NCBI GenBank assembly: GCA_001657395.1
Contig: LYSY01000008.1
Span: 186,001 to 250,000 of the forward strand
From: Rhodospirillales bacterium BBD 1991-14
GTDB taxonomy: Bacteria; Pseudomonadota; Alphaproteobacteria; Kiloniellales; Kiloniellaceae
Length of the DNA stretch: 64,000 nt
Direction of reading: 5' to 3'
Every line of letters begins with the position of its first letter. Within the stretch, counting starts at the first letter, position 1. A program made the translations under genes and the position numbers. Positions 1 through 54,185 of the stretch are shown one piece after another. A model generated the notes under the pieces. It saw only the letters and a program-made list of their open reading frames with translations, did not search any database and was not told the DNA's origin.

Positions 1-1619
1 GGGACGGCTTCACGGCCAAGGCCGACGCGCCCACCGCGGCCGCCCAACGCATGGCCCAGCGCAACCGCCTGGCGGAACTGCGCGGCGAACTGGACGGCGT
101 CGAGCGGGAAACCGCCCGCGCCGGTGCCGATCACGGCAGCCTGGAAACCGCGGTCGAGCAGGCCGCAGCGGCGGAAAAGGCGGCGCGCGAACGCGAAACG
201 GCGGCCTTCGACGGCGTCAATGCGGCCCGGCAGGCGCACACGGAGCTTGCCGGCAAGGCCAGCGCCGTCGCCTCGCGGCTGGCGACCCTCGACGAGAGCA
301 TCGAACGCCTGCAGGCCGACGAAGCGGAGACCGAAAGCGCCCTGACCCAGGCGCGCGGCGAGGAAGCGGGCCTGCCCGACCTCAACCTGGAGCACCAACG
401 GGCGGACGACCTGCGCGAGGCGCTGGCCGCGGCACGCGACGGCCTGGTCGAGCGCCAGGGGCGCCTGGGCCAGTTGCAGCGCGAAGCCGAGGCGCGCGGC
501 CGCCGGCTGCAGGACATCGCCACGGAACGCCAGTCCTGGCAGCGCCGTGCGGAGGAGGCCAAGGCCCATCTGGCCGACCTGGAAGCCCGGCGCGGCGCCA
601 CGGAAACCGAGATCGAGACGCTGGCGGCCATTCCGCTGGCCCTTGCCGAGCGCCGTGAGGCTCTGGCCGCCCTGATCGAAGAGGCCGAGGCGCGCCGCCG
701 CAGCGCCGCCGACGCGCTGGCCGAAGGCGAGAACCGGCTGAGTGCCGCCGACAAGGCCTTGAAGGCGGAAGAAGCGCGGCTGACCAACGCGCGGGAAAAC
801 CGCATCCGCTGCGAGGGGGCGGTCTCCCAGGGCCGTCAAAGCCTGGATACCGTCACCGAGAAAGTGCGCGAGAAGCTGAACTGCGCCCTGGACCAGGCCC
901 TGGCCGTGGCCGAGGTCGATCCGGACAAGGAACTGCCGCCGCGCGAAGAGGTGGAAACCAAGCTGGCCCGGCTGATCCGCGAGCGCGAGAACCTGGGCGC
1001 GGTGAACCTGCGCGCGGAAGCCGAAGCACGGGAACTCGACGAGCAGATCGTCGGCATGCAGTCCGAGCGCAGCGACCTGATCGCCGCCATCAGCCGGCTG
1101 CGCCAGGGTATTGCCAGCCTCAACCGCGAAGGGCGCGAGCGCCTGGTGGCCGCCTTCGAGGCCGTCAACAGCCACTTCTCCGAGCTCTTCGTCCGGCTCT
1201 TCGGCGGCGGCCGGGCGCATCTGAAGCTCACCGAGTCGGAAGACCCGCTTGCCGCCGGCCTGGAAATCATGGCGAGCCCGCCGGGCAAACGCCTGCAGGT
1301 AATGTCGCTGCTGTCCGGCGGCGAGCAGGCGCTCACCGCGCTGGCCCTGCTGTTCGCGGTGTTCCTGACCAACCCGGCCCCGATCTGCGTGCTGGACGAG
1401 GTCGACGCGCCTTTGGACGATGCCAATGTGGACCGCTTCTGCAGCCTGGTGGATGAACTGACCAAGGCGACGGAGACGCGCTTCCTGGTGATCACCCACC
1501 ACCGCATGACCATGGCCCGCGTGGACCGCCTGTTCGGCGTCACCATGGCCGAGCGCGGCATCAGCCAGCTGGTTTCGGTGGATCTGCAGGCCGCCGAGGG
1601 CCTGCGCGAGAGCGCCTGA
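1..1619 (+). CDS. smc: Chromosome segregation ATPase SMC, C-terminal part (5' end outside window)
   Basis: The reading frame is open from the first base, so the gene enters from upstream and only its C-terminal part is present. Most of it is an Ala/Glu/Arg-rich coiled coil, the returning arm of the SMC rod. The last ~200 residues form the C-terminal ATPase half: the signature LLSGGEQALTALALLFAVF (bases ~1305-1365) is followed by the Walker B/D-loop ICVLDEVDAPLDD and the switch histidine in LVITHHRMTM. SMC dimers with ScpA/ScpB organise and segregate the chromosome. The gene ends 16 bp before the convergent response-regulator gene. The visible part has no defect. Confidence 0.95.
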   Translation, partial: DGFTAKADAPTAAAQRMAQRNRLAELRGELDGVERETARAGADHGSLETAVEQAAAAEKAARERETAAFDGVNAARQAHTELAGKASAVASRLATLDESIERLQADEAETESALTQARGEEAGLPDLNLEHQRADDLREALAAARDGLVERQGRLGQLQREAEARGRRLQDIATERQSWQRRAEEAKAHLADLEARRGATETEIETLAAIPLALAERREALAALIEEAEARRRSAADALAEGENRLSAADKALKAEEARLTNARENRIRCEGAVSQGRQSLDTVTEKVREKLNCALDQALAVAEVDPDKELPPREEVETKLARLIRERENLGAVNLRAEAEARELDEQIVGMQSERSDLIAAISRLRQGIASLNREGRERLVAAFEAVNSHFSELFVRLFGGGRAHLKLTESEDPLAAGLEIMASPPGKRLQVMSLLSGGEQALTALALLFAVFLTNPAPICVLDEVDAPLDDANVDRFCSLVDELTKATETRFLVITHHRMTMARVDRLFGVTMAERGISQLVSVDLQAAEGLRESA

Positions 1620-1635
1620 TCTAAACGCGGCTTCT

Positions 1636-2352
1636 TCAGCGCCGACCCTGGGCCACCGTGATCACGGCAATCTCCGTGTTGGCGGCGCACTTGATGGCGA
1701 TCTGGTCGATCAGTTCCACCGTCAGTTCGGTCCCGGCTTCCAGAAGCAGGGTGCCGCCGGCGCTGTAGAAATTCTCGACAACAACCATCCCCGGTTCCAC
1801 CAGGGTGTAGTGAAGCTGCTGGGACGGCCCTTCGACCGCGACGGCATCAGGGGACTCCAGCATCTCCTTCAAACGCCTGGAAGGGTCTTGGTCCGCTTCC
1901 TGCTGATTGCCGCCTGCCCTGGGAACCTTGATCGCGGCATACTCGACAGAAGGTTTGAGCACGAGCTTGCGCTCCATCGCATAGGCCATGCGTTCGCCCA
2001 ACTTTGCCTTGGATACCGGCTTGGAGAGAAAGGCCGAAACATCCAGGGCACTGGCCCGCATCACGAGGTCGGATTCCGCATGGCCGGTGAGCATGAGGAT
2101 CGGAAAGTCCCGCTCCAGCGGCGTTTCGCCGGTGCGCACGGCGTGGAGGATCTCCAGGCCGGTCATCCCGTCCATCTGATGGTCGAGAATGAGGGCGCCG
2201 TTGACGAAGTCGAGCGCCATCAAGGCTTCCTTGCCGTTGCTGGCGGTCTGCGTCGCATAGCCGAGATCGTTGAGCATGCGCACCATAAGGGTGCGCACGA
2301 AGGCCTGATCATCGGCGACCAAAACCGACTTAAGCGCTTTGGCGTTCAGCAT
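1636..2352 (-). CDS. Response regulator: receiver domain with a non-DNA-binding C-terminal domain
   Basis: This 238-residue protein has a CheY-like receiver at residues ~8-130. The acidic pair is in VADDQ, the phosphoacceptor is Asp57 in LILDHQMDG, the Thr is in MLTGHAES and the Lys in FLSKPVS. The C-terminal ~100 residues have no helix-turn-helix, GGDEF or HD-GYP motif. They read VEPGMVVVENFYSAGGTLLL, a small domain seen behind receivers, so output is probably by protein contact. The ATG lies inside the 3' end of the upstream hybrid kinase gene (23-bp overlap), so the two are co-transcribed and probably translationally coupled. The kinase is the likely phosphodonor. The signal is unknown. 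Confidence 0.85.
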   Translation of the reverse strand: MLNAKALKSVLVADDQAFVRTLMVRMLNDLGYATQTASNGKEALMALDFVNGALILDHQMDGMTGLEILHAVRTGETPLERDFPILMLTGHAESDLVMRASALDVSAFLSKPVSKAKLGERMAYAMERKLVLKPSVEYAAIKVPRAGGNQQEADQDPSRRLKEMLESPDAVAVEGPSQQLHYTLVEPGMVVVENFYSAGGTLLLEAGTELTVELIDQIAIKCAANTEIAVITVAQGRR

Positions 2353-42041: not shown

Positions 42042-43895
42042 TTAACCGCCGAAGAGCGCCTTGTTGTTGGCCTCGTCCTGCTCGGCGACCCTGTTGGGGT
42101 CGTCGACCTTCAGGGTGATCTTCCCGGCCTTTTTTAAGGGCGCCTGAAAATCAACCACCACCCAGGCCTTGGCGCCGGCTTCCAGCGCCGGCACAGCGAC
42201 GCTGCGCCGGATCCGCTGGCCGCCGCCCTTGCGGTAGATGGCGCGCAGGTTGGTCGCCGCCGCCGGGCCGGCACCGCGGTTGACCACCAGCACCCGCAGG
42301 CGCGCCTTCCCCTTGCCCTTCACGCTGCGCTGGATGACGAGGTCGGGCAGCAGAGCCAGCACGGCAGTCTTTCGGTCCAGGGGCGCAGCACTGCGGCGCG
42401 CCGCCGGGGAGGCCGACTCCGCCGTCAGGCCGGAGGGGGCGGCCGCACGCGCCCCGCCCTGGGGACGCGGCTCAAGGGTCAGCCCGCGGCCCCCGGCGAC
42501 ATCGGGGCGGATGGCCGGGTTCACACAGGCGAACTCGTAGCCGCGTTTCGGCACCGAGGCGATGATCGCACCGCTCTCGCCGGTCACGTTGAAAGCCAGA
42601 TCGACGGTCTGCTTCTTCAAGCCGCCATCCGAGGGGCCGGTCGCCAGGGTCGCCTGCGGATCGGTCTGCCAGTTCAGCTTGCGCTCGGCGACGACAAAGG
42701 CCACGTCGCCCTGCTGCACGGCATAGGCCTCGGGCTTTGAGAGGTAGCCGTTGCCGACGAAACCGGCATAGCCGGCGGCCGGGCCGCGGCCGACGATCAT
42801 GCCGTAGAGGCGGATGGTGTCGACGCAAAGCTGGCGCCCGACCATGACCTTCTCCAGTGCGACCACCTGCATCTTCACCTCGGGCCGCAGGACGGTCTGG
42901 AAGTCCGTCGCGCCGGGCTCTACGCATTCCATGGTGTATTCCGCCCAGGGTGTCCTGAAATCGTGGCTGACGCCGACGATCCGCACGAAGCCGCTTTCCG
43001 CCCAGTCGATATCGTGCTCGGCATCATAGTTGTTCTTGATCCTGTACTGGTGGCTGAACATCGCCGTCCTGGCATGGTCGGTGGTGACGCTGTGGACTTC
43101 GCTGAGGCGGCCGTCCTGGTTCCTGTAGCGGAAGCGCACCTCCGTATCCGCCCGGTCGGTCTGGATGACGCCGCTGAGGACGATCTTGCAGAGCCCTGAA
43201 GGACCGTACTGCTCGAGCAGCGAGAGGCTTGCGTGCTCGACCTCGGCATCGCCGATGGTGAGGCCGCCGGCGGCCCCCAGGGGCACGGCACCGGGCCATT
43301 TCTGGCAGACCAGAGTCAGCTTCTTGTAGTCGTCCCAGGACGGCTCGCCCTCGCCGGGGATTCCGCTGCCGGCGGCACCGGTCATGTCGTAGGCGAGGTG
43401 GGGCGTAACGGCGAGTTCGATCCTGCGGTCCTCGGCGAAGATCGCCTTGTCGCCCAGGCCGCCGGCGCGCAGGCTCTGCGCAAGGCTGTTGCACTGGCCG
43501 AGGGCGAGGGTCTCCAGGGAAGATCCGGGGACCGTCACGGGGACGGTGCCGCTCCAGGACCGGGGTCGGTCGTTGCCAAAGGATTTGTGATGGCCGTCCT
43601 CGCGGTACTGCGGCCAGTACTGCCGGCCGACACCCTCCAGGCCAAGGCCCAGCCAGGCGGTGAACCACACGACGCGGCCGAACTGGCCGGCGTCGACCTC
43701 GACATGGACATTGGCGATAAGGTTCGAAAGCGGCGCCAGCCTGTGATAGCTGCTGCCGTTGCTTTGGACGACAATCTCGTCGGTCACGAGGGACTGAACA
43801 TATACGCTGCCAATATCGGCATGGGACGGTGACGTCAGCAGGCTGCTGGTGAGGAACACCGTCGTGAATGCCGTGGCGAAGAGGTGGCGGTGCAT
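42042..43895 (-). CDS. Secreted modular protein, N-M-M'-CARDB architecture
   Basis: This 617-residue protein has a signal peptide (LFATAFTTVFLTSSLLTSPS, cleavage near SHA). The N module has a tryptophan-rich strand (AWLGLGLE) and the pair Cys135 (LGQCNSLAQSL) and Cys197 (LTLVCQK). The first M module has Cys236 (PSGLCKIVL) and Cys324 (YTMECVE). The second M module has Cys357 (GRQLCVDTI) and Cys457 (YEFACVN). After a Pro/Ala linker the CARDB-like module (~540-617) starts LPDLVIQRSVKGKGKARLRV and ends VDDPNRVAEQDEANNKALF. It is the largest paralogue of the 48-56 kb cluster and is divergent from the pspA operon. Function unknown; an exported binding or adhesion role is inferred. Confidence 0.75.
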   Translation of the reverse strand: MHRHLFATAFTTVFLTSSLLTSPSHADIGSVYVQSLVTDEIVVQSNGSSYHRLAPLSNLIANVHVEVDAGQFGRVVWFTAWLGLGLEGVGRQYWPQYREDGHHKSFGNDRPRSWSGTVPVTVPGSSLETLALGQCNSLAQSLRAGGLGDKAIFAEDRRIELAVTPHLAYDMTGAAGSGIPGEGEPSWDDYKKLTLVCQKWPGAVPLGAAGGLTIGDAEVEHASLSLLEQYGPSGLCKIVLSGVIQTDRADTEVRFRYRNQDGRLSEVHSVTTDHARTAMFSHQYRIKNNYDAEHDIDWAESGFVRIVGVSHDFRTPWAEYTMECVEPGATDFQTVLRPEVKMQVVALEKVMVGRQLCVDTIRLYGMIVGRGPAAGYAGFVGNGYLSKPEAYAVQQGDVAFVVAERKLNWQTDPQATLATGPSDGGLKKQTVDLAFNVTGESGAIIASVPKRGYEFACVNPAIRPDVAGGRGLTLEPRPQGGARAAAPSGLTAESASPAARRSAAPLDRKTAVLALLPDLVIQRSVKGKGKARLRVLVVNRGAGPAAATNLRAIYRKGGGQRIRRSVAVPALEAGAKAWVVVDFQAPLKKAGKITLKVDDPNRVAEQDEANNKALFGG

Positions 43896-44228
43896 GATCG
43901 CTCTCCTGTTCGGCATGGGTGTCTGAAACCACTGGTGCTGTTCCTGGGTCGCCTGCCGGACACGCAAAGTTCAAAGGCCCCCTCCTGGGCGCGACCTTGA
44001 GCGGTCCGTCAGGCCCGGCTGTGCTCCATGCGAGCGACCGGACTTCGGCGCCGCGGCCAACGCGGCGGCAACCCGAACGGAGGGCGGACGTTCAAAATTC
44101 CTATATTTTTCAATATTTTGATGCGATCCGGCAGGGACCTCATGACACTGTCGTCAAAAGGTCATATATTGTCCCTTGACGAAAGGACAAATCATCCCCT
44201 TATATAACCATGAAGCGTGGAGGAAGCG
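43896..44228. other. Divergent control region between the modular protein and the pspA operon
   Basis: This 333-bp spacer is GC-rich near the minus-strand gene and strikingly AT-rich at 44090-44210. The AT-rich part holds the promoter and an inverted repeat of the pspA operon. I found no GG-N10-GC pair of a sigma54 promoter, which is the usual psp control signal in enterobacteria. Confidence 0.6.
44151..44205 (+). promoter_or_regulatory. Promoter with inverted repeat for the pspA-yqiJ-flotillin operon
   Basis: TCGTCAA (44151-44157) and TTGACGA (44176-44182) are exact inverted arms. The right arm includes a -35-like TTGACG. TTATAT at 44200-44205, 18 bp further, is a good -10. A regulator bound to the repeat would block or steer RNA polymerase. 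Confidence 0.55.
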
Positions 44229-45401
44229 ATGCATTCTACCGAAGCGGTTTTGCACCTGCACCCCTCGGAGGAACAGGGCCAGCAGATGCGCAGCTATGCC
44301 GTGCGCTACGCGGAGGCCGCGAACTGGCTGGCCCAGCTCGTCTTCGACGCAGGCATCACCGATCAGGTCCGTCTGCATCGCCTCTACTACAGCCGCCTGA
44401 GGGAGCGCTTCGACCTGCCGGCCCAGGCCGCCGTGCTGTGCCTGAAGCACATCGCCCGGCTCTGCCGCAAGGCGGTGGTCGTGCCCAAGGTCTCAGCCGA
44501 GGGCCCGGTGCCCTTCGACCGGCACCTCTACTCGATGAAGTCGGTCGACGCGGTCTCCCTCTCCACGCTCTCGGGGCGGGTCGTCGTGCCCTGCACGCTG
44601 TCGACCTATGCCCAGGGGGAGTTTCTGGTTGGCAGCGCCGAGCTCTGCCATCTCGACGGCGAGTGGGTCTTCATCCTGCGCACCGCGCTCAGCGAGGACC
44701 TGCTGCACCGTCACCGCCTAGGAAAGGAGCAGTTCATGCCCGATAGCCTTTTGAACCGCATCACCCGCCTGGTTTCCGGTTTGACCCACAGCGCGATCGA
44801 GCAGGCCGAGCAGGCCGCCTCCGTGCCGATCATGGAACAGGCGATCCGCGACATCGACGATGCCGTCAAGGAGGTGCGCAGCGAGGTCGGCAAGCACGAG
44901 GCGACCAAGCACAACGCGCGCCGCCGCATGGCCGAACTGCAGCAGGAGCACGACTCGCTGAGCGAGAAGATCGCGCTTGCCGTCGAGGAAACCAAGGAGG
45001 ACCTGGCGGAGGCCGGCATCGGCCGCCAGCTCGACATCGAGAACCAGCTCGCGCTGCTGGAGCGCACCCTGGCCGAGGCCGACGAGGAGATCACCAAGCT
45101 GACCGACTCGCTGGCCGCCCTGCAGGCCAGCCGCCGCGAGGCCCAGAGCCGGCTGCGCGACCTCAAGGCCGCCGCCCCGGCCAACGGCAACGGTGCGCCT
45201 GCCGGCGGCAGCAAGGCCCAGAGCCAGGCCGATGCCGCGATGGATGCGGCCCAGCGCCTGGGGGAGAAGTTCACCGGCCTGCCGGCCGAGGACAGCACCA
45301 TCAGCAGCCGCGACCTCGACGACCTGGCGGAACTGCATCGCCAGCACGCGATCCAGGAACGCCTGGCGCGGCACAAGGCCCGCCTCAAGAGCGCCGATTA
45401 G
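44229..45401 (+). CDS. Fusion of a TnpB-like N-terminal domain with PspA/IM30
   Basis: This 390-residue protein has two unrelated parts. Residues ~8-165 match the N-terminal half of IS605-family TnpB: an RxRF-LPAQ-AV segment (RERFDLPAQAAVLCLKHIA), then PFDRHLYSMK, VSLSTLSGRVVVP and WVFILRTAL. The RuvC acidic residues and zinc finger of TnpB are absent. Residues 170-390 are a PspA/YjfJ-type coiled-coil protein (MPDSLLNRITRLVSGLTHSA, then MEQAIRDIDDAVKEVRSEVG). It has an Ala/Gly-rich insert at ~320-335 and a C-terminal helical segment. PspA proteins coat and remodel stressed membranes. ATG at 44229 follows GGAGG. The internal ATG at 44736 also has a strong site, so a plain PspA may be made too. 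First gene of the operon with YqiJ-like and flotillin genes. Confidence 0.85.
   Translation: MHSTEAVLHLHPSEEQGQQMRSYAVRYAEAANWLAQLVFDAGITDQVRLHRLYYSRLRERFDLPAQAAVLCLKHIARLCRKAVVVPKVSAEGPVPFDRHLYSMKSVDAVSLSTLSGRVVVPCTLSTYAQGEFLVGSAELCHLDGEWVFILRTALSEDLLHRHRLGKEQFMPDSLLNRITRLVSGLTHSAIEQAEQAASVPIMEQAIRDIDDAVKEVRSEVGKHEATKHNARRRMAELQQEHDSLSEKIALAVEETKEDLAEAGIGRQLDIENQLALLERTLAEADEEITKLTDSLAALQASRREAQSRLRDLKAAAPANGNGAPAGGSKAQSQADAAMDAAQRLGEKFTGLPAEDSTISSRDLDDLAELHRQHAIQERLARHKARLKSAD
44721..44738 (+). promoter_or_regulatory. Internal ribosome binding site and start for a stand-alone PspA
   Basis: GGAAAGGAG at 44721-44729 stands 6 nt before ATG 44736, which begins the canonical PspA sequence MPDSLLNRIT. 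In the long frame the same bases are read as the linker LGKEQF. Confidence 0.7.
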
Positions 45402-45480
45402 CGGCCCCGGGCTTGGCGGTCACGTCAGAGGAAGCACGCCAAAGGAGGAGTGACAGCATCAACAGAGGGGAGCCTGCGCC

Positions 45481-46173
45481 ATGTCTTCGGTCGGATTCTT
45501 TTTCGCGGATCAGAACAGTCCGTTTCTGGTAACCGCTGTCATCACCCTGGTCATTGCCGGCATCGAGATCCTGAGCGTTCTGCTGGGCCTCGGCCTGTCG
45601 GACCTGATCGACGACGTGATGCCGGACCTGGATATCGAGGGCGACCTCGACGCCGAGATGCCGGACGGCGGCGGCGGCATTCTGGCCGATGCGATGTCCT
45701 GGCTGAATGTCGGCCGGGTGCCCTTTCTGGTTCTGCTGATCGCCTTTCTCACCCTCTTCACCGTCAGCGGCTACGGCCTGCAGCTTCTGGTCGGCGGCGC
45801 ATTGGGCTTTTACCTGCCCGCGCTGCTTGCCGCGCCGGCAGCCCTGGCCGCCGCCCTGCCGGCAACCCGCTGGACCAGCCGCGGCCTCGCCCGCATCGTC
45901 CCGCGTGAAGAGACCTATGCAACCGGCAACGACGACCTCGTCGGGCGCGTTGCCACCGTCACCCTGGGGCCCGTCACCCGACGGGCGGCCGGCAAAGCCA
46001 AGGTCGCCGACCGACACGGCAACCTGCATTTCGTCCGCGTCCGCGCGGCCAGCCGGGGTGAACGCTTTCAGACGGACGCGGAGGTGCTGCTGGTCGGCTA
46101 CAAGCGTTCCCTCTTCGAGGTGATCGCGCCGCCGGGCAGCCTTTCTTCCAATCAAAATCAGGATGGGGAATAA
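45481..46173 (+). CDS. YqiJ-like membrane protein with an OB-fold (NfeD-related)
   Basis: This 230-residue protein has membrane segments FLVTAVITLVIAGIEILSVL, VPFLVLLIAFLTLFTVSGYG and the ALGFYLPALLAAPAALAAAL region. A soluble C-terminal OB-type barrel follows (DDLVGRVATVTLGPVTRRAA, then KVADRHGNLHFVRVRA). This is the YqiJ/DUF1449 pattern. Such proteins partner flotillin-type SPFH proteins in membrane microdomains. It lies 79 bp after the pspA fusion and 3 bp before the flotillin gene. Confidence 0.85.
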   Translation: MSSVGFFFADQNSPFLVTAVITLVIAGIEILSVLLGLGLSDLIDDVMPDLDIEGDLDAEMPDGGGGILADAMSWLNVGRVPFLVLLIAFLTLFTVSGYGLQLLVGGALGFYLPALLAAPAALAAALPATRWTSRGLARIVPREETYATGNDDLVGRVATVTLGPVTRRAAGKAKVADRHGNLHFVRVRAASRGERFQTDAEVLLVGYKRSLFEVIAPPGSLSSNQNQDGE

Positions 46174-46176
46174 ACA

Positions 46177-47946
46177 ATGGAAATCATTTTTCTCGCCGGT
46201 TTCGGCACACTCGGTCTTGTCGTCATTGGATTCATCTTCGCCCGGCTTTACGTGCGGGCGCCCAAGGACCTCGCCTTCGTGAAAACCGGCCTCGGCGGCC
46301 AGAAGGTCGTCCAGGACGGCGGCGCCCTGAAGCTGCCGGTGTTGCATGACATCACCTGGGTCAACCTGCGCACCCTGCGCCTGGAGGTGAACCGCCAGCG
46401 CGAAGCGGCGATGATCACCTTCGACCGCATGCGCGTCGACATCGGCGTGGAGTTCTACGTGCGCGTCAAACCGAACCGGGAAGCCATCGCCCTGGCCGCC
46501 CAGACCCTCGGCGAGCGCACCCTGGAGGGCGAGCAGTTGCGCGAACTGGTGGAAGCCAAGTTCGTCGACGCCCTGCGCGGTGTCGCCGCGCAGATGAACC
46601 TGAACGACCTGCACGAGAAGCGCACCGACTTCGTTCAGAAGGTGCAGAACGCGGTCGCCGGCGATCTGGAACAAAACGGCCTGGAACTGGAGTCGGTCTC
46701 GCTGACCACCCTCGACCAGACCTCGGCCGAGTTCTTCAACCCCAACAACGCCTTTGACGCCGAGGGCCTGACCCGGCTGACGGAAATCACCCAGCAGAAG
46801 GCGAAAGAGCGCAACGAGATCGAGCAGGAGACCCGCGTCGCCATCGAGCAGCGCAACCTGGAGGCCGACCGCCGCGCCTTTGAGATCAGCCAGGAGAAGG
46901 ACTACGCCAGGCTGGAGACCGAGCGCAACGTGGCGAACTACACCGCCGAGACCCGCGCCGAGACGGCGCAGAAAGAGGCCGAGGCCAAGCGGCTTGAAGA
47001 CGAGGCGGCCATCCAGGCCACGCTGGCGGTGGAGCGCAAGCAGATCGAATCAGACCGCGACGTGGAGCTGACCCGTCAGGACAAGGCGATCACGGTCGCC
47101 ACCAAGTCGCAGGAGGAATCGCTGGCGGCGGCCGAGGCCAACAAGGCTCGCGCCAACGCGGTGCGCGAGGAGGAGCAGGTGAAGACCGTCGCCCGCGTCG
47201 CCGAGGCCGAGCGCCAGAAGGCGGTGGCCATCGTCGCCGCCCAGGAAGAGGCCGAGAAGAACGCGGTCGGCGTCACCGTGGCCGCCGAGGCCGAGCGCCA
47301 GGCCTCCGAGGACGAGGCCCAGGCGACCCTGATCACCGCCCGCGCCAGCTCGGAAGCGACGAAGATCGCCGCCGAGGCGGACGCCGCCCGCTACCAGGTG
47401 GAGGCCGAGGGCCAGGAGGCGATCAACGCCGCGCGCAACGTGCTGGACGACCGCATCATCGCCCTGGAGCTGAAGAAGGCCCTGATCGAGGTGATGCCGG
47501 AGGTCATGGCCGCTTCGATGAAGGCGGTGGAGAAGATCAAGGACATCCGCGTCATCGACTTCGGCCAGGGCATGCCCGGCGGCAACGGCCTGATGCCGTC
47601 TCTCGCCGGCCCCAACGGCGGCGGTACGGGCAGCCATGCCGGCGGCGCCCTGCAGGGCGGCGGCAGCCTGCCGGACAACATCGTCCAGTCGCTGCTGAAC
47701 TACCGCATGCAGGCCCCGCTGGTGGACGAGTTGCTCACCGACCTCGGCTTCAAAGCCGGCGAGAACCCGAACACCATGCTGCACCGGCTGTCCCAGGGTA
47801 TCGGAGACGGCCAGTCCCGGGGCAACGGAACCGCCGATGACGGCGATTCGGCTGAAGCCGCCGGCGAGCGGGTTGGCAAGGACGCCCAGCCGCCGGCCCT
47901 GCCGAAGCGGCCCAATCCGGAGAGCGGCGCCGAAGGCACGGCCTGA
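46177..47946 (+). CDS. yqiK: Flotillin (YqiK-type SPFH protein)
   Basis: This 589-residue protein has one N-terminal membrane segment (IIFLAGFGTLGLVVIGFIFA) and an SPFH/band-7 domain at ~30-210 (VYVRAPKDLAFVKTG-like start, RMRVDIGVEFYVRVKPNREA). A very long Ala/Glu-rich coiled coil follows (~210-430) with repeated AEAERQ units. The C-terminal ~130 residues are Gly/Pro-rich, with a short helical patch (LLNYRMQAPLVDELLTDLGF). Flotillins scaffold membrane microdomains. The pairing with a YqiJ-like gene is the E. coli yqiJ-yqiK arrangement; the addition of PspA links it to membrane stress. Confidence 0.92.
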   Translation: MEIIFLAGFGTLGLVVIGFIFARLYVRAPKDLAFVKTGLGGQKVVQDGGALKLPVLHDITWVNLRTLRLEVNRQREAAMITFDRMRVDIGVEFYVRVKPNREAIALAAQTLGERTLEGEQLRELVEAKFVDALRGVAAQMNLNDLHEKRTDFVQKVQNAVAGDLEQNGLELESVSLTTLDQTSAEFFNPNNAFDAEGLTRLTEITQQKAKERNEIEQETRVAIEQRNLEADRRAFEISQEKDYARLETERNVANYTAETRAETAQKEAEAKRLEDEAAIQATLAVERKQIESDRDVELTRQDKAITVATKSQEESLAAAEANKARANAVREEEQVKTVARVAEAERQKAVAIVAAQEEAEKNAVGVTVAAEAERQASEDEAQATLITARASSEATKIAAEADAARYQVEAEGQEAINAARNVLDDRIIALELKKALIEVMPEVMAASMKAVEKIKDIRVIDFGQGMPGGNGLMPSLAGPNGGGTGSHAGGALQGGGSLPDNIVQSLLNYRMQAPLVDELLTDLGFKAGENPNTMLHRLSQGIGDGQSRGNGTADDGDSAEAAGERVGKDAQPPALPKRPNPESGAEGTA

Positions 47947-47997
47947 GCATCCGCTTCGCCTCGGCGGTCCGGCCCCAAGCGGGGTGCGGACATAGAA

Positions 47998-48023
47998 GAA
48001 GGCCCGCCATCAGGCGGGCCTTC
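47998..48023. terminator. Bidirectional terminator between flotillin and the M-module gene
   Basis: GAAGGCCCGCC (47998-48008) pairs perfectly with GGCGGGCCTTC (48013-48023) around ATCA. It serves the convergent ends of the flotillin gene and the minus-strand gene at 48047. An identical hairpin lies at 48931-48956. Confidence 0.75.
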
Positions 48024-48046
48024 GCTGTTAGGGCAGAGCGGTTCGA

Positions 48047-48763
48047 TCAGTCGACGGTCCTGTCACGGCCGCCACCGCGGTCGTTGGAGTCATCGCCGCC
48101 GCGGTCGCGACCGTCACCGTCACGCTGATCGTCCTCGGTGGCACGGATGATCCGGGGGTCGGCCTGCTCTTCGCAGGACACCGTGTGGCTGTCGAAGACC
48201 GAAGCCACTTCGTTCGGCGCGACGACCTGCACCCGGAAGGCAAGGTTGCGCAGACCCTGGGGATCGTCCTGCTCTGCTGCGGAGCCGGTGCCGAAGAGGC
48301 GCTCGAAAAAGTCCGGATCCCGGGTCTCGCGCGGCTCCGCAGGTGGATCGAAGACGGCGACCGAGGCGCCGGCATCCGTCTGCGTGCTCTCGGAGAGGGC
48401 GACCTGATGGCTGGCCTGTGCCGCAAAGCGGCCGTCGTCGGTGATGTTGGCCTGCGCCTTGAAGACCTGCGATTCGCGGCCATCGTTGGTGACGATCTTG
48501 TAGGACAGCGTCCCCGGCGACCGGGCGCCGAGCCGCACGTTGAGCGCATAGGCCATCGGACAGGAGCCGGCCATTTGCAGCGGCACCACGTCGAGGCTCG
48601 CAGTGGTGGCCTGAAAGACGTCACTGCGCGCCGCAAGCTGCGTCGCGGCATCGCCGGTCAGGCTGCCGGACGGCAGGCCGCTCTCGGCCGCGGCAAGGCC
48701 GGATCCCAGCATCAGCGCCGTGGCGGAAACCAGCAGGCTCCTGGTCATTGTATTGACGAGCAT
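48047..48763 (-). CDS. Secreted M-module-only protein, paralogue 1
   Basis: This 238-residue protein has a signal peptide (LLVSATALMLGSGLAAA). Its single M module has exactly two cysteines, Cys68 (MAGSCPMAYALNVRLG) and Cys197 (HTVSCEE), placed like the M-module pair of the long paralogues. PGTLSYKIVTNDGRESQVFK is the conserved centre. A DPDFFERLFGTG segment is unique to this pair. The C-terminal ~30 residues are an Asp/Arg/Gly-rich tail. GGGGAG precedes the ATG. It shares most of its sequence and its terminator with the next gene, at 49001. Confidence 0.75.
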   Translation of the reverse strand: MLVNTMTRSLLVSATALMLGSGLAAAESGLPSGSLTGDAATQLAARSDVFQATTASLDVVPLQMAGSCPMAYALNVRLGARSPGTLSYKIVTNDGRESQVFKAQANITDDGRFAAQASHQVALSESTQTDAGASVAVFDPPAEPRETRDPDFFERLFGTGSAAEQDDPQGLRNLAFRVQVVAPNEVASVFDSHTVSCEEQADPRIIRATEDDQRDGDGRDRGGDDSNDRGGGRDRTVD

Positions 48764-50043: not shown

Positions 50044-50751
50044 CTAGAAGTACCTGACGGCCCTGTTGTTCCGGTCGTTGGACTCTTTCACCTGGTTCTG
50101 CCAGTCGACACGCACGTCGACCTTTTTCAGCATCTTCACAGGAACACCGTTGTCGACCGTGATCCAGGCCGAGTCCTTCGGAAGCAGGGCCGCGACCTTG
50201 GCGGTGGTTTTCTTCACCTTGCCGGTCTTCTTCTCGGTAGAGGTCACATCGAGCACCGTCGGCTTGGACGATCCGTCGCCCGCGTTCTCCACCTTGATGC
50301 GGAGTTTGGCGCTGTTCAGCTTGTGGACGCCGATCTGCACGACTTTGAGATCGGGAAGGAGGTACGTGCCGACGGTCATCTCGACCGCTTTGCCCGCCGC
50401 CTTGGACGTGTCCCCGGGCTTGGAACCACCGGCCTGGCCGGGCGGATCGGACTTTGCGCCCGGTTTCAGCACCGGCGCCTTGCTGCCCGGTTTAGGGTTC
50501 TCAGGCAACCCGGCCCCGCCCCCGCCTTTGGCGCCGCCGCTTTGCTGAGGCAACTCCGATTTCGGTCCGGCGTGCGGGGGCTTGCTCTTGCTGCCGGGCT
50601 GGCTGCTGCCCTTGGGCGCCGCCGCAACCAGGACCGGTTCGGCGCGATCGCCCGGGGTCTGTTCAAGGCCCGCAGCCGCCACCGAAACGGCTGGCAGCAG
50701 CAGGCCGGTCAACGCAACGGCAGCAAAGCCGGCAAGGAAGTTCACTTTCAC
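50044..50751 (-). CDS. Secreted protein with only the CARDB-like module
   Basis: This 235-residue protein starts at GTG 50751, chosen because GGAGG stands 7 nt upstream and the result is a normal signal peptide (MKVNFLAGFAAVALTGLLLP). A low-complexity Pro/Lys/Gly linker (~35-130) leads to the CARDB-like module (~135-235): LLPDLKVVQIGVHKLNSAKL, then AWITVDNGVPVKMLKK and the end VKESNDRNNRAVRYF. It has no cysteine at all, unlike the N and M modules. An ATG at 50919 would add a second hydrophobic segment and is less likely. Confidence 0.68.
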   Translation of the reverse strand: MKVNFLAGFAAVALTGLLLPAVSVAAAGLEQTPGDRAEPVLVAAAPKGSSQPGSKSKPPHAGPKSELPQQSGGAKGGGGAGLPENPKPGSKAPVLKPGAKSDPPGQAGGSKPGDTSKAAGKAVEMTVGTYLLPDLKVVQIGVHKLNSAKLRIKVENAGDGSSKPTVLDVTSTEKKTGKVKKTTAKVAALLPKDSAWITVDNGVPVKMLKKVDVRVDWQNQVKESNDRNNRAVRYF

Positions 50752-51043
50752 GGCAGGTCCTCCGAACAAGGTTGACGGTTGTAACGAACGCGGCGGAAGG
50801 CTGGGGCCGCCCTGCTGAAGCTGCGCGGCAGTCGGAGCCGCCCTCCCCGGCACGGGCCCAAGCAGAGTGGCCGCGGGCAGAAGAAGAAGGCAGGCCAAGG
50901 CGGCTCTGCGCACACCCATCAGATCGAAGCGTCTCACTGTCTTTGCTCCTGGAGATTCGAACGATGCATTTGTCACGCGCGTGTTCCGGATCAGCCCCTG
51001 GAGACCTGCGGGCGCAGGCGGAGTCCCCAGCCCGCCACGCGCG
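50752..51043. other. Intergenic region, about 290 bp
   Basis: This is the spacer between two minus-strand members of the modular family. It is GC-rich with an open frame in continuity with the downstream gene (to 51096), but no separate gene. I see no clear terminator hairpin for the 51044 gene. Confidence 0.4.
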
Positions 51044-52492
51044 CTAGGGATGGTAGACGGCCGTGTTGTTGTTCTCTTTCGCCTCCTTAACGGCATTGTT
51101 CGGATCGAGCTGGACGTGGATCGAGTCCGCCTGGGCGACCTGGGTCTTGAAGGTGACCGTTACCCAAGTGGAACCGAGCGTCTTCAACGCCGGAACCTGG
51201 ACCGTGACCTTCTGCTTGTTCGCACCACCCTGCTTGTAGGTGGCCCGAAGCTGGGTCGCCTTGCTTGGAAAAAAGCTGAGGTTCTGCACATGGACCAGCA
51301 GTTCGAAAGGCTTGAACGACTTTTTCGTCTTGGAGACCGCGAGGTCCGGCAGGTAAGGGCCTGCCGACGCGCTGCCGCCATCGGCGGAGGGCTTGGCCCC
51401 CGGTTTGAAACCGCCCGGAGCACCGGCGCCGGGACGGGGCGCCCGGCAGTCGATGATGTAGGTCTGCCAGTTCGACTTGACCTTGGAGCCGCCCAGCATC
51501 TCGACCCGCAGACCCAGCTTGTGCACGGCATCGGGCGTCGGCACGTCGGTGAGGCCGATCGGACCTTGGCCCGGTGTGGTCTTCAGTCCGCCAGGCTGTT
51601 GCCCGTGGCCGTGGGCACCTTGAAGAATCGGCACAAGCAGCTTTTCGGTGGCGACCGCCCGGGCGCCCTGGCCACCGGACTTGACCGTCATCGTCGCCTT
51701 TCGGCTGCCGCCGACGATACGCTTGTCGGAGGTGACGACGCGGTAGTGGACGACCCCCGGCGAGTCGCCTTCGAAGGTCATGACCATCTTTACGTTGACC
51801 GGACAGCTGCCTCTGTAGGTCCTGGGACTGAGGGCGAGCTTGACGTTCTTCACAAGGGGTGCATTGGGTGAGAGGACCGTCTGCGGACTTCCCTCCTGCC
51901 CCTTGCAGACAAGGACGAAGGACTTCTTGCCGGACTGGAAGGTCGGGCTGGTCTCCTGCTGAACCGTATATTCGGCCTCGCCCAGGACTTCGACCTCGAC
52001 ACCGATCTCGTAGTCCTTGCTGAGCGCATTCTGATCCGAGAGAAGGCCGGCTTTCAGCGCATCGGCATTCTTGTTGCAGAGCACGATCGCATACTGGTGG
52101 AAGTTCGCCTTCGGCAGGGTCACGTCAAGCTCTTCGTCGACGACAAAGGGCAAGGCGCCGGCCGGATATGTCTGGAACAGGGAGAAGGGCTTGAGGACGG
52201 TCGTCAAGTCGCCCGTTCCGGCAAGACCCTTGGCCTTGAGCCGAAGCCAGAGCCGCCAGGATTCGATCCTGGTGCTGCCGCCACCCCCGTTCAGATAGAG
52301 GTCGGCCGCCGCGGTCAGCGCCGGCCCCTTGACCGAGGTGTACTTTCCATCCGCGCCGGTGACTTCAATCAACGCCGGCGTGACGGCTGTCAGTTCGAGA
52401 TCCTGTTGGGCGGCGGCAGCCGGCCCTGCCGGCAGCATGAGACCCATCAGGACGCCGGCCACGGCTGCACTTGCCGAAAGGGAACCTTTCAC
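51044..52492 (-). CDS. Secreted modular protein, N-M-CARDB architecture (paralogue a)
   Basis: This 482-residue protein has a signal peptide (VAGVLMGLMLPAGPAAA). The N module carries ALIEVTGADGKYTSVKG, a LWLRLKAKGL strand, and Cys139 (IVLCNKNADALKAGL) with Cys196 (FVLVCKG). The M module has Cys230 (RGSCPVNVKMVMTFEGDSPG) and Cys349 (YIIDCRAP). A Gly/Pro linker precedes the CARDB-like module from ~381 (LPDLAVSKTKKSFKPFELLV), which ends LDPNNAVKEAKENNNTAVYHP-like. Its CARDB module is nearly identical to that of the 52695 gene, a sign of recent duplication or conversion. Function unknown. Confidence 0.77.
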   Translation of the reverse strand: MKGSLSASAAVAGVLMGLMLPAGPAAAAQQDLELTAVTPALIEVTGADGKYTSVKGPALTAAADLYLNGGGGSTRIESWRLWLRLKAKGLAGTGDLTTVLKPFSLFQTYPAGALPFVVDEELDVTLPKANFHQYAIVLCNKNADALKAGLLSDQNALSKDYEIGVEVEVLGEAEYTVQQETSPTFQSGKKSFVLVCKGQEGSPQTVLSPNAPLVKNVKLALSPRTYRGSCPVNVKMVMTFEGDSPGVVHYRVVTSDKRIVGGSRKATMTVKSGGQGARAVATEKLLVPILQGAHGHGQQPGGLKTTPGQGPIGLTDVPTPDAVHKLGLRVEMLGGSKVKSNWQTYIIDCRAPRPGAGAPGGFKPGAKPSADGGSASAGPYLPDLAVSKTKKSFKPFELLVHVQNLSFFPSKATQLRATYKQGGANKQKVTVQVPALKTLGSTWVTVTFKTQVAQADSIHVQLDPNNAVKEAKENNNTAVYHP

Positions 52493-52694: not shown

Positions 52695-54185
52695 CTAGGG
52701 CTGGTAGACGGCCGTGTTGTTGGTCTCTTTGGCCTCTTTCACGGTGTTGTTCGGATCGAGCTGGACGTGGATCGAGTCAGCCTCCGCAACCGGGGTCTTG
52801 AAGGTCAGAGAGACCCAGGCGGAGCCGGCGGGCTTGAAGGCCGGAACAGTCGCTGTAACCATCTGCTTGTTCTTGCCACCCTGCTTGTAGGTCGCCCGGA
52901 GCTGGGTCGCCTTGGTCGGGATGAAGCTGTTGTTCAGCACCTGGACCAGCAACTCAAAAGGCTTGAACGACTTCTTCACCTTGACGAGCTCGAGATCGGG
53001 GAGCATCTGGCTCGTCGACAGGGAACCGGGCGCTGTGTTTGGCCGATCCGTCTGCGCCAAACCGCCGGGCCCGCCGGCTACGGCCGGATTTCTGGCCGGT
53101 CCGCAGTCCTGGGTGTACTCAAACGGAACAACGCCATGCTCCTGCATCGGCTCGTAGGCTTGGCTCGGGAACACGACTTCGAAACGATACGTGGTTTTTC
53201 CGGAGGGCTTGCTTGCGGAGGCCGCATAGCCGCCGATCTGACTCTGCGTCTTCTTCAGGGGAAACTGTAGGTTCTGAACGGCTGAGGTGCGAAAACTGCC
53301 GTCCGGCATCGGGGTCATCTTTCCCTTGAAGGGACCGACGTTGGCGATATGAACACCGCCAAGGGTCTCCAGGCCGCCGCCGTGCGAGGCATCGACGTTG
53401 AACACCTTGACGAGATAGCTGAAGGTCCCCGCGCTGGCACCAAAGAAGCTCAGCGATAACTGCGCATTGGCGGGGCAGGCGCCCTTGTGGTTGTTAGGCG
53501 AAACGGAGCCGAGCCAGCGGGTCACCTTTGGCTTCTTGCGGGTCGGGTTTGGCAGGGCATCGGGGTTGAGCACGGTGGTCGCCACGTGCGCCTTGCAGAC
53601 CACCTGGATTTTGCTGAAGGTCTTGAATGTACCATGAAAATCGAAATTTTCCGGACCATCACCGTCGTTCGTCTCTATCGTAAAAACTTCATCGATCGCG
53701 ATCAGCGTGTTCCGGTCCGTGCTGAAGATCTGGTCGTCGCTATACCCCGCCTTGCGCAGGGCGTTGGCATTCCTGTTACACTGGGCGATAACGAAGTCTT
53801 TCCAGGCAACTGTGGGGATCTTGAAACGAAGTGTTTCGACGATTTTGTCGGGCCGCTTGCCGATCGGAAACGTCTCTCCCTGGGCATAGCCTTTCATGTT
53901 GTGCCAGATAATGCTGCTGCCGTGCTGCTCGCCAAGCCTTAGCCAGACAGAGTAGTTCTTTATCCTGACCTTGGATCCCGAATAATGTTTGTAGTCGACG
54001 AAAGCATGGACCCTCGCGGTGAGGAAGGTCAGATCGCTATTGAGCTTTGTGTACTTGGAACCCTGCCCTTCAACCTCAATGAGTTTGGGGGCGTAATCCT
54101 CCAGTGTCGCCACGATGCTGGCTGATGCCGTAGAAGACAGCATCAAACCGGCCAGCGCGGCGGTCGCTGAGATTAAGCGTTTCAT
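52695..54185 (-). CDS. Secreted modular protein, N-M-CARDB architecture (paralogue b)
   Basis: This 496-residue protein has a signal peptide (MKRLISATAALAGLMLSSTA). The N module has PKLIEVEGQGSKYTKLNS, SVWLRLGEQHG, and Cys136 (IAQCNRNANALRKAG) with Cys197 (QVVCKAH). The M module has Cys237 (KGACPANAQLSLSFFGASAG), a GVHIANVGPFKGKM insert shared with the 54306 protein, and Cys361 (TQDCGPARNPAVAGGPGG). The CARDB-like module starts ~396 (LPDLELVKVKKSFKPFELLV) and ends EAKETNNTAVYQP. It combines an N-M part closest to the 54306 protein with a CARDB part closest to the 51044 protein. Confidence 0.77.
   Translation of the reverse strand: MKRLISATAALAGLMLSSTASASIVATLEDYAPKLIEVEGQGSKYTKLNSDLTFLTARVHAFVDYKHYSGSKVRIKNYSVWLRLGEQHGSSIIWHNMKGYAQGETFPIGKRPDKIVETLRFKIPTVAWKDFVIAQCNRNANALRKAGYSDDQIFSTDRNTLIAIDEVFTIETNDGDGPENFDFHGTFKTFSKIQVVCKAHVATTVLNPDALPNPTRKKPKVTRWLGSVSPNNHKGACPANAQLSLSFFGASAGTFSYLVKVFNVDASHGGGLETLGGVHIANVGPFKGKMTPMPDGSFRTSAVQNLQFPLKKTQSQIGGYAASASKPSGKTTYRFEVVFPSQAYEPMQEHGVVPFEYTQDCGPARNPAVAGGPGGLAQTDRPNTAPGSLSTSQMLPDLELVKVKKSFKPFELLVQVLNNSFIPTKATQLRATYKQGGKNKQMVTATVPAFKPAGSAWVSLTFKTPVAEADSIHVQLDPNNTVKEAKETNNTAVYQP

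Follow-up and report, generated by a model that had tools for sequence, protein, structure and literature searches.

What does the front lobe of a TnpB protein do when it is joined to PspA, a protein of the ESCRT-III superfamily? The question is raised by a gene of Rhodospirillales bacterium BBD 1991-14, found in a 64,000-nt stretch of contig LYSY01000008.1 (positions 186,001 to 250,000; hereafter the window), in which one open reading frame encodes a TnpB-derived N-terminal domain (the N-domain, or lobe) followed by PspA, at the head of an operon with a YqiJ-like gene and a flotillin gene (Table 1). On balance, we consider it probable that PspA here regulates itself, with a domesticated WED/REC lobe of TnpB serving to bind DNA; the binding and the repression are what we infer from the DNA. 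The first-pass annotation had described a single frame with a strong ribosome site, a TnpB N-terminal pattern and then a complete PspA, with no stop in between and with the RuvC and zinc-finger parts of TnpB gone, and this description is confirmed. A GGAGG (44219-44223) lies 5 nt before the first ATG of the 390-residue frame. Residues 174-384 match PspA_IM30 (PF04012, 1.4e-13) over profile positions 2-216 of 220, which is the full-length domain, and TIGR02977 matches the PspA part over positions 5-218 of 219, yet under the model's equivalog cut-off; PADLOC gives only coiled-coil-type matches there. The homology to TnpB stops just ahead of the first RuvC motif, and the remainder is PspA, with RuvC and zinc finger both absent.

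The N-terminal part descends from the WED/REC lobe of a TnpB and is fused in frame to the complete PspA. Among the matches of a tblastn search with residues 1-168 are a protein of Bacillus carboniphilus annotated as TnpB (3e-10, residues 6-159) and PspA/IM30 proteins on Rhizobium and Agrobacterium plasmids. A profile built from 35 such N-domains (163 positions) finds a complete TnpB in another genome (2.3e-16, profile positions 9-158), and its comparison by hhalign with an alignment of seven TnpBs gives a probability of 99.3% (E 2.1e-20, 146 columns). The NCBIfam transposase N-terminal domain TIGR01765 matches residues 1-168 at 1.2e-3, under its curated cut-off, and matches 7 of the 35 members of the profile. 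Pfam has no match for residues 1-168 and nothing over noise for all 35 members, PHROGs and PADLOC give nothing for the N-domain, and searches of PDB sequences with the N-domain alone and with the profile find no TnpB. The AlphaFold model of the N-domain, computed from an alignment that contained no TnpB, has a predicted local distance difference test score (pLDDT) of 92.1 and shows one strand, three helices and a region rich in beta structure. Its fold resembles those of Cas12f, TnpB and Fanzor: ranks 1-9 of a Foldseek search against the PDB are two dCas12f structures, Fanzor2, ISFba1 TnpB, ISDra2 TnpB, two TranC structures, Cas12-2 and Cas12f1, with template modeling scores of about 0.3-0.5, and rank 1 alone of the 240 matches has E <0.001. 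Profile comparison and fold together rule out a convergent look-alike of TnpB.

The fusion is widespread. Of 98 genomes related to the window's, seven (its own included; L001 and L003-L008) match through both parts. Of 386 genomes sampled evenly across the class, six contain the lobe, fused to PspA in every case, and the same sample contains 16 genomes with this type of PspA (E up to 1e-15), of which the other ten are unfused. The N-domain profile has 12 matches in 398 genomes of the phylum, namely nine fusions, one complete TnpB, one chance match and one frame of 219 residues (L139, positions 1453-2112, reverse strand) that resembles the N-terminal lobe of TnpB but lacks RuvC and PspA; it may be a degraded TnpB or a further free lobe. 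When species genomes were scanned with the full fusion and the best 80 of 355 relatives were kept, these came from Rhizobium, Bradyrhizobium, Microvirga, Reyranella, Vineibacter, Enterovirga, Ensifer and others, and each of the 80 loci has an uninterrupted frame of 375-519 codons across the match. The order of lobe, PspA, YqiJ-like gene and flotillin is kept in 83 of 83 loci (these 80 and three plasmid loci), all fetched by the fusion itself. In L032, L033 and L034 the operon lies on large Rhizobium and Agrobacterium plasmids, and in L032 it adjoins repA/repB.

No stop separates lobe and PspA in the window, nor in two overlapping sets of relatives (10 loci and 6 loci), and because the junction is open in relatives, including all 80 scanned loci, a sequencing artefact is ruled out as the source of the long frame. 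The lobe is under purifying selection: the ratios of nonsynonymous to synonymous substitution rates in three pairs are 0.070/0.729, 0.127/0.634 and 0.031/0.166, that is 0.10, 0.20 and 0.19. In a tree of the PspA part alone, a single branch separates the fused (32 rows) from the unfused proteins (7 rows), and therefore one fusion event suffices; this tree leaves out 5 of 12 unfused rows, has support from the Shimodaira-Hasegawa-like approximate likelihood ratio test only, and carries a long-branch warning. The TnpB C-terminal domain (PF07282) has no match in the window's genome, while the same search is positive in 6 of 14 control genomes. The local capture of a transposon fragment in front of pspA, as the first-pass annotation had it, does not fit these results; the spread over many alphaproteobacterial genera, the open frames, the purifying selection and the absence of PF07282 rule out a recent event of this kind.

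Two features that the first-pass annotation did not contain bear on the function of the fusion, namely a promoter palindrome (44182-44202) and an internal ATG (44736) with its own Shine-Dalgarno sequence. The palindrome has 7-bp arms and a 7-bp spacer (7-N7-7), and lies upstream of the start in most fused loci. It was parsed in 94 of 98 loci (all but L001, L004, L047 and L049), and at least six of the seven pairs form in 88 of them; in the 33 non-redundant loci, at least six pairs are found in 28 (3.7% of mononucleotide shuffles) and all seven in 21 (0.18% of shuffles). It is placed between a TTG-type -35 hexamer (77 of 88 loci) and a -10-like hexamer that ends 5-7 nt upstream of the start codon (80 of 88 loci). 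The half-sites, read in all loci except L047 and L049, are AAAGCAC in Rhizobium and Bradyrhizobium, AAGTGAC in Microvirga, AAAGTAT in Reyranella and Vineibacter, and AAAGGAT or AAAGGAC in others, with AAAACAC and AATGAC as further forms among the lineages. The two arms change together: over 33 distinct sites, 22 cells are changed on both sides, compared with 5.5 in shuffles (0 of 500 as high), and 93.9% of cells pair, while both pairing and covariation are lost when one arm is slid.

In each genome in which it is present, the palindrome is a single site. The exact AAAGCAC site occurs exactly once in six of eight genomes, the site with its flanks (at most two mismatches) exactly once in each of seven genomes with none for a reversed control, and the AAGTGAC site once in each of three Microvirga genomes, and by contig coordinates every genome-wide match lies just upstream of the PspA-YqiJ-flotillin operon. 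A palindrome that is used once per genome therefore suggests a dedicated regulator encoded beside its site, and we infer that the lobe is the best candidate for this role, since nothing else in the operon is evidently suited to bind nucleic acids. That the arms covary and that the palindrome is found once per genome favours DNA binding by the lobe without a guide over the added RNA binding that the first-pass annotation had considered. A correlation within the lobe concerns residue 66: CAC/GTG is present in at least one arm in 76 of 77 loci with Arg at this position, and in none of 20 loci with Gln. This comparison leaves out L032, and at L137 the motif was matched elsewhere, though the reading from the tree gives Arg there; the sole Arg exception, L058, has a start called too far downstream, and its site reads AAAGCAC.

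In the mechanism that we propose, no guide RNA would be needed: the lobe would bind the palindrome with the surface by which TnpB reads the duplex of the target-adjacent motif (TAM). In ISDra2 TnpB, according to the accessible text of PMC10097598, the TAM duplex is held in the WED/REC cleft, and the wRNA scaffold lies on WED and RuvC; the fusion keeps WED/REC, which forms the TAM cleft in TnpB, and is without RuvC. PspA would be the source of both multimerization and the membrane signal. Its multimers would fit the lobe to a dyad site, and the operator-bound fusion would block RNA polymerase, so that the operon represses itself. On membrane damage, PspA would assemble on membranes, the lobe would leave the operator and the operon would be induced, after which free PspA made from the internal start would join YqiJ and flotillin in repair. 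To the fuller proposal, in which a TAM-reading lobe freed from guide and nuclease has become a sequence-specific operator-binding domain with half-sites diversified by lineage, carried on an ESCRT-III-like PspA that couples membrane damage to transcription and yields two products, we would give about an even chance.

The two products are predicted from the internal start. The Shine-Dalgarno sequence at this start has at least five matching bases in 28 of 33 non-redundant loci and four in the other five, compared with at least five at 2.8% of 142 other in-frame ATGs; the score takes the best of neighbouring start codons, which slightly favours the internal start. The first start of the fusion is without any Shine-Dalgarno sequence in 25 of the 33 loci, and because the -10-like hexamer ends so close to the start codon, leaderless messages are predicted there. 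In the window and its nearest relatives, by exception, a short leader with a ribosome site precedes the first start. Since PspA keeps an in-frame ATG with its own Shine-Dalgarno sequence inside the fusion, the one gene probably yields PspA in both fused and free form.

Relatives in which PspA is not fused have a different arrangement in the same place. The AAAG-N13-CTTT form of the palindrome is found within 200 nt upstream of the first gene in 0 of 15 unfused relatives; some 7-N7-7 site with six pairs is present in the 200-nt stretch in six of the 15, none of the AAAG...CTTT form. In all ten unfused operons of the even class sample (L146-L153, L155 and L156), another conserved gene occupies the lobe's place before PspA. 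Its products have about 160-200 residues and an N-terminal motif SVR...TPSEK, and no Pfam or NCBIfam family matches them above cut-off. An impression by eye of a ribbon-helix-helix protein was not confirmed by Pfam, NCBIfam, PDB sequences, or an AlphaFold model (pLDDT 78) with a fold search, and for this reason we call it only another conserved gene. In L013 and L155, a TTGTA-type palindrome (TTGTAAT...ACTACAA and TTGTATT...ACTACAA) lies about 85 nt upstream of the SVR motif, and is perhaps the operator of the unfused type. In Pseudomonas aeruginosa, the first gene before PspA encodes the DUF2170 protein BacA, for which proteomics suggested negative control of the operon (accessible text of PMC10948618). 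We read the place before PspA as a slot for an operon-specific regulator.

Other explanations of the palindrome and of the lobe have to be weighed against a lobe that binds its own promoter. The palindrome might serve as operator for a separate repressor whose gene lies elsewhere, with the lobe doing something else on PspA, such as making an oligomer or partner contact. PspA assembly is tunable and partners do bind PspA, and contact of the lobe with DNA is a prediction, but a regulator with its gene elsewhere would usually act at more than one site, whereas here there is one per genome, always at this operon, and its AAAG-N13-CTTT form is missing from the unfused PspA-YqiJ-flotillin operons; we therefore regard this explanation as unlikely. 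It is rather improbable that the lobe binds RNA and that the palindrome is a hairpin in the 5' leader for translational self-control. WED does contact the wRNA in TnpB (accessible text of PMC10097598), and several one-sided changes allow G-U pairs. However, the palindrome is probably not transcribed, because it lies between the promoter hexamers and the -10-like one ends so near the start, and one-sided C to T changes occur in either arm, producing a possible U-G in 9 loci and a non-pairing C-A in 5, as expected of a DNA dyad.

Regulators of the TldR type, which the accessible literature describes as TnpB-derived RNA-guided transcription factors, provide a model in which the lobe and a hidden guide RNA target this promoter. 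We hold this to be highly improbable, as RuvC, which bears much of the contact with guide and heteroduplex, is gone, and a guided target has no need of a palindrome with covarying arms. An Rfam scan of 43900-48200 gives nothing above family cut-offs (its sole match, sX14, scores 20.9 bits, where the gathering score is 80), in a search that included no dedicated guide search and no TnpB-specific guide model. Finally, the long frame could be incidental to two overlapping genes, with the internal start mainly used. In most loci the internal Shine-Dalgarno sequence is stronger than the one at the first start, as would suit such an arrangement, but the frame is open through the junction in all of the best 80 loci, the lobe evolves under purifying selection, the missing Shine-Dalgarno sequence at the first start fits a leaderless start, and in unfused relatives the upstream gene does end in a stop near the PspA start. 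Taken with these points, the overlapping-gene account is quite improbable.

Several observations weigh against a domesticated lobe that acts as an operator-binding domain. Six of the 94 parsed fused loci have fewer than six of seven pairs, and the exact AAAGCAC pattern is absent in two of eight genomes, which carry one-arm variants. The window's own site is degenerate, with four of seven pairs in the family register; here the inverted repeat TTGTCC-N10-GGACAA possibly replaces the eroded right arm. Residue 66 changes only once on the tree, so that its correlation with the half-site is a lead and not independent support, and the alignment that puts it near F77 of ISDra2 TnpB does so at 10% probability and is not relied on. 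The N-domain profile compared with the sequence of ISDra2 TnpB alone is not significant, which makes the mapping of TAM contacts weak. The internal Shine-Dalgarno mean is 5.18 as observed, a modest excess over 4.24 with synonymous codons redrawn, and part of this signal thus comes with the amino acids. Known TnpBs read the TAM in a guide complex, and to our knowledge guide-free binding by the lobe alone is without precedent.

The coordinates of the features are collected in Table 1. In all, four minus-strand frames with CARDB domains (42045-43967, 50047-51096, 51047-52492 and 52698-54185) flank the operon on its two sides, and one of them is divergent from the fusion gene.

Table 1. Features of the fusion gene, its promoter region and its operon, in window coordinates
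Feature	Position	Strand	Details and basis
Fusion open reading frame	44229-45401	+	390 residues; single frame from ATG 44229 to the stop ending at 45401
TnpB-derived N-domain (WED/REC lobe without RuvC and zinc finger)	44229-44734	+	residues 1-168; sequence homology, fold
Complete PspA/IM30 with its own in-frame ATG at 44736	44736-45401	+	PF04012 1.4e-13, TIGR02977
Operator-like site AAAGGAC-aaatcat-CCCCTTA	44182-44202	+	place of the family palindrome; inside the sole match in its own genome at up to 3 mismatches
Inverted repeat TTGTCC-N10-GGACAA, centred on the -35 box	44169-44190	+	sequence; GTCC...GGAC kept in L003-L007
Predicted promoter, TTGACG (44176-44181) and TTATAT/TATATA (44200-44206)	44176-44206	+	read by eye
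Internal ribosome site AGGAAAGGAG (44720-44729), 6 nt, ATG 44736; predicted second start for free PspA	44720-44738	+	sequence; kept in relatives
YqiJ-like membrane/OB-fold protein, gene 2 of the operon	45481-46173	+	PF21001 2e-30, PF07290 1.3e-13
Flotillin (SPFH), gene 3 of the operon	46177-47946	+	PF15975 3e-31, PF01145 9.1e-16

The fusion can be placed next to several known systems. With TnpB of the IS200/IS605 and IS1341-like elements (e.g., ISDra2 and ISFba1) it has the WED/REC lobe in common, by profile and predicted fold, but PspA stands in the place of RuvC and zinc finger, no transposon end or guide is seen, and in the 386-genome sample the lobe is found only with PspA. TldRs work with a guide RNA and still have a RuvC part, though an inactive one. 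The fusion has no RuvC part at all, and its target resembles a dyad operator; what it shares with TldRs is the descent from TnpB and, on the accessible text about them, a proposed repression by promoter binding. From the PspA/IM30 proteins it takes a complete PspA domain. Ravi et al. 2024 (PMC11237479) report that more than 98% of PspA homologs are single-domain, the rest including NlpC/P60 and PspAA fusions, and the word "transposase" is absent from the accessible text of that paper; nor does the accessible text of Popp et al. 2022 mention TnpB or transposase. The bacA-bacD operon of P. aeruginosa is likewise a PspA-first stress operon with a first-gene partner (accessible text of PMC10948618), but its partner is a separate DUF2170 protein, whereas here the partner is a TnpB lobe fused to PspA. 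The first-pass annotation knew of no described PspA with such a domain, and our literature searches, for which subscription papers were mostly outside coverage, gave no report of a TnpB-PspA fusion or of its dual start. The conserved fusion and the dual start thus appear to be undescribed in the literature searched, and this is independent of the regulatory reading.

If the lobe does bind its operator as proposed, the TAM-reading lobe of TnpB would work as a stand-alone DNA-binding domain, and would represent a second route of domestication beside the RNA-guided repressors, as well as a natural system in which TAM-type reading specificity could be followed through many lineages. Demonstration of guide-free operator binding by a TnpB lobe would make the fusion a new kind of regulator; otherwise it is a variant of the Psp operon. 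For the Psp system itself, the fusion would combine membrane sensor and transcription regulator in one molecule, and would make the signalling of membrane damage from PspA to the promoter directly testable.
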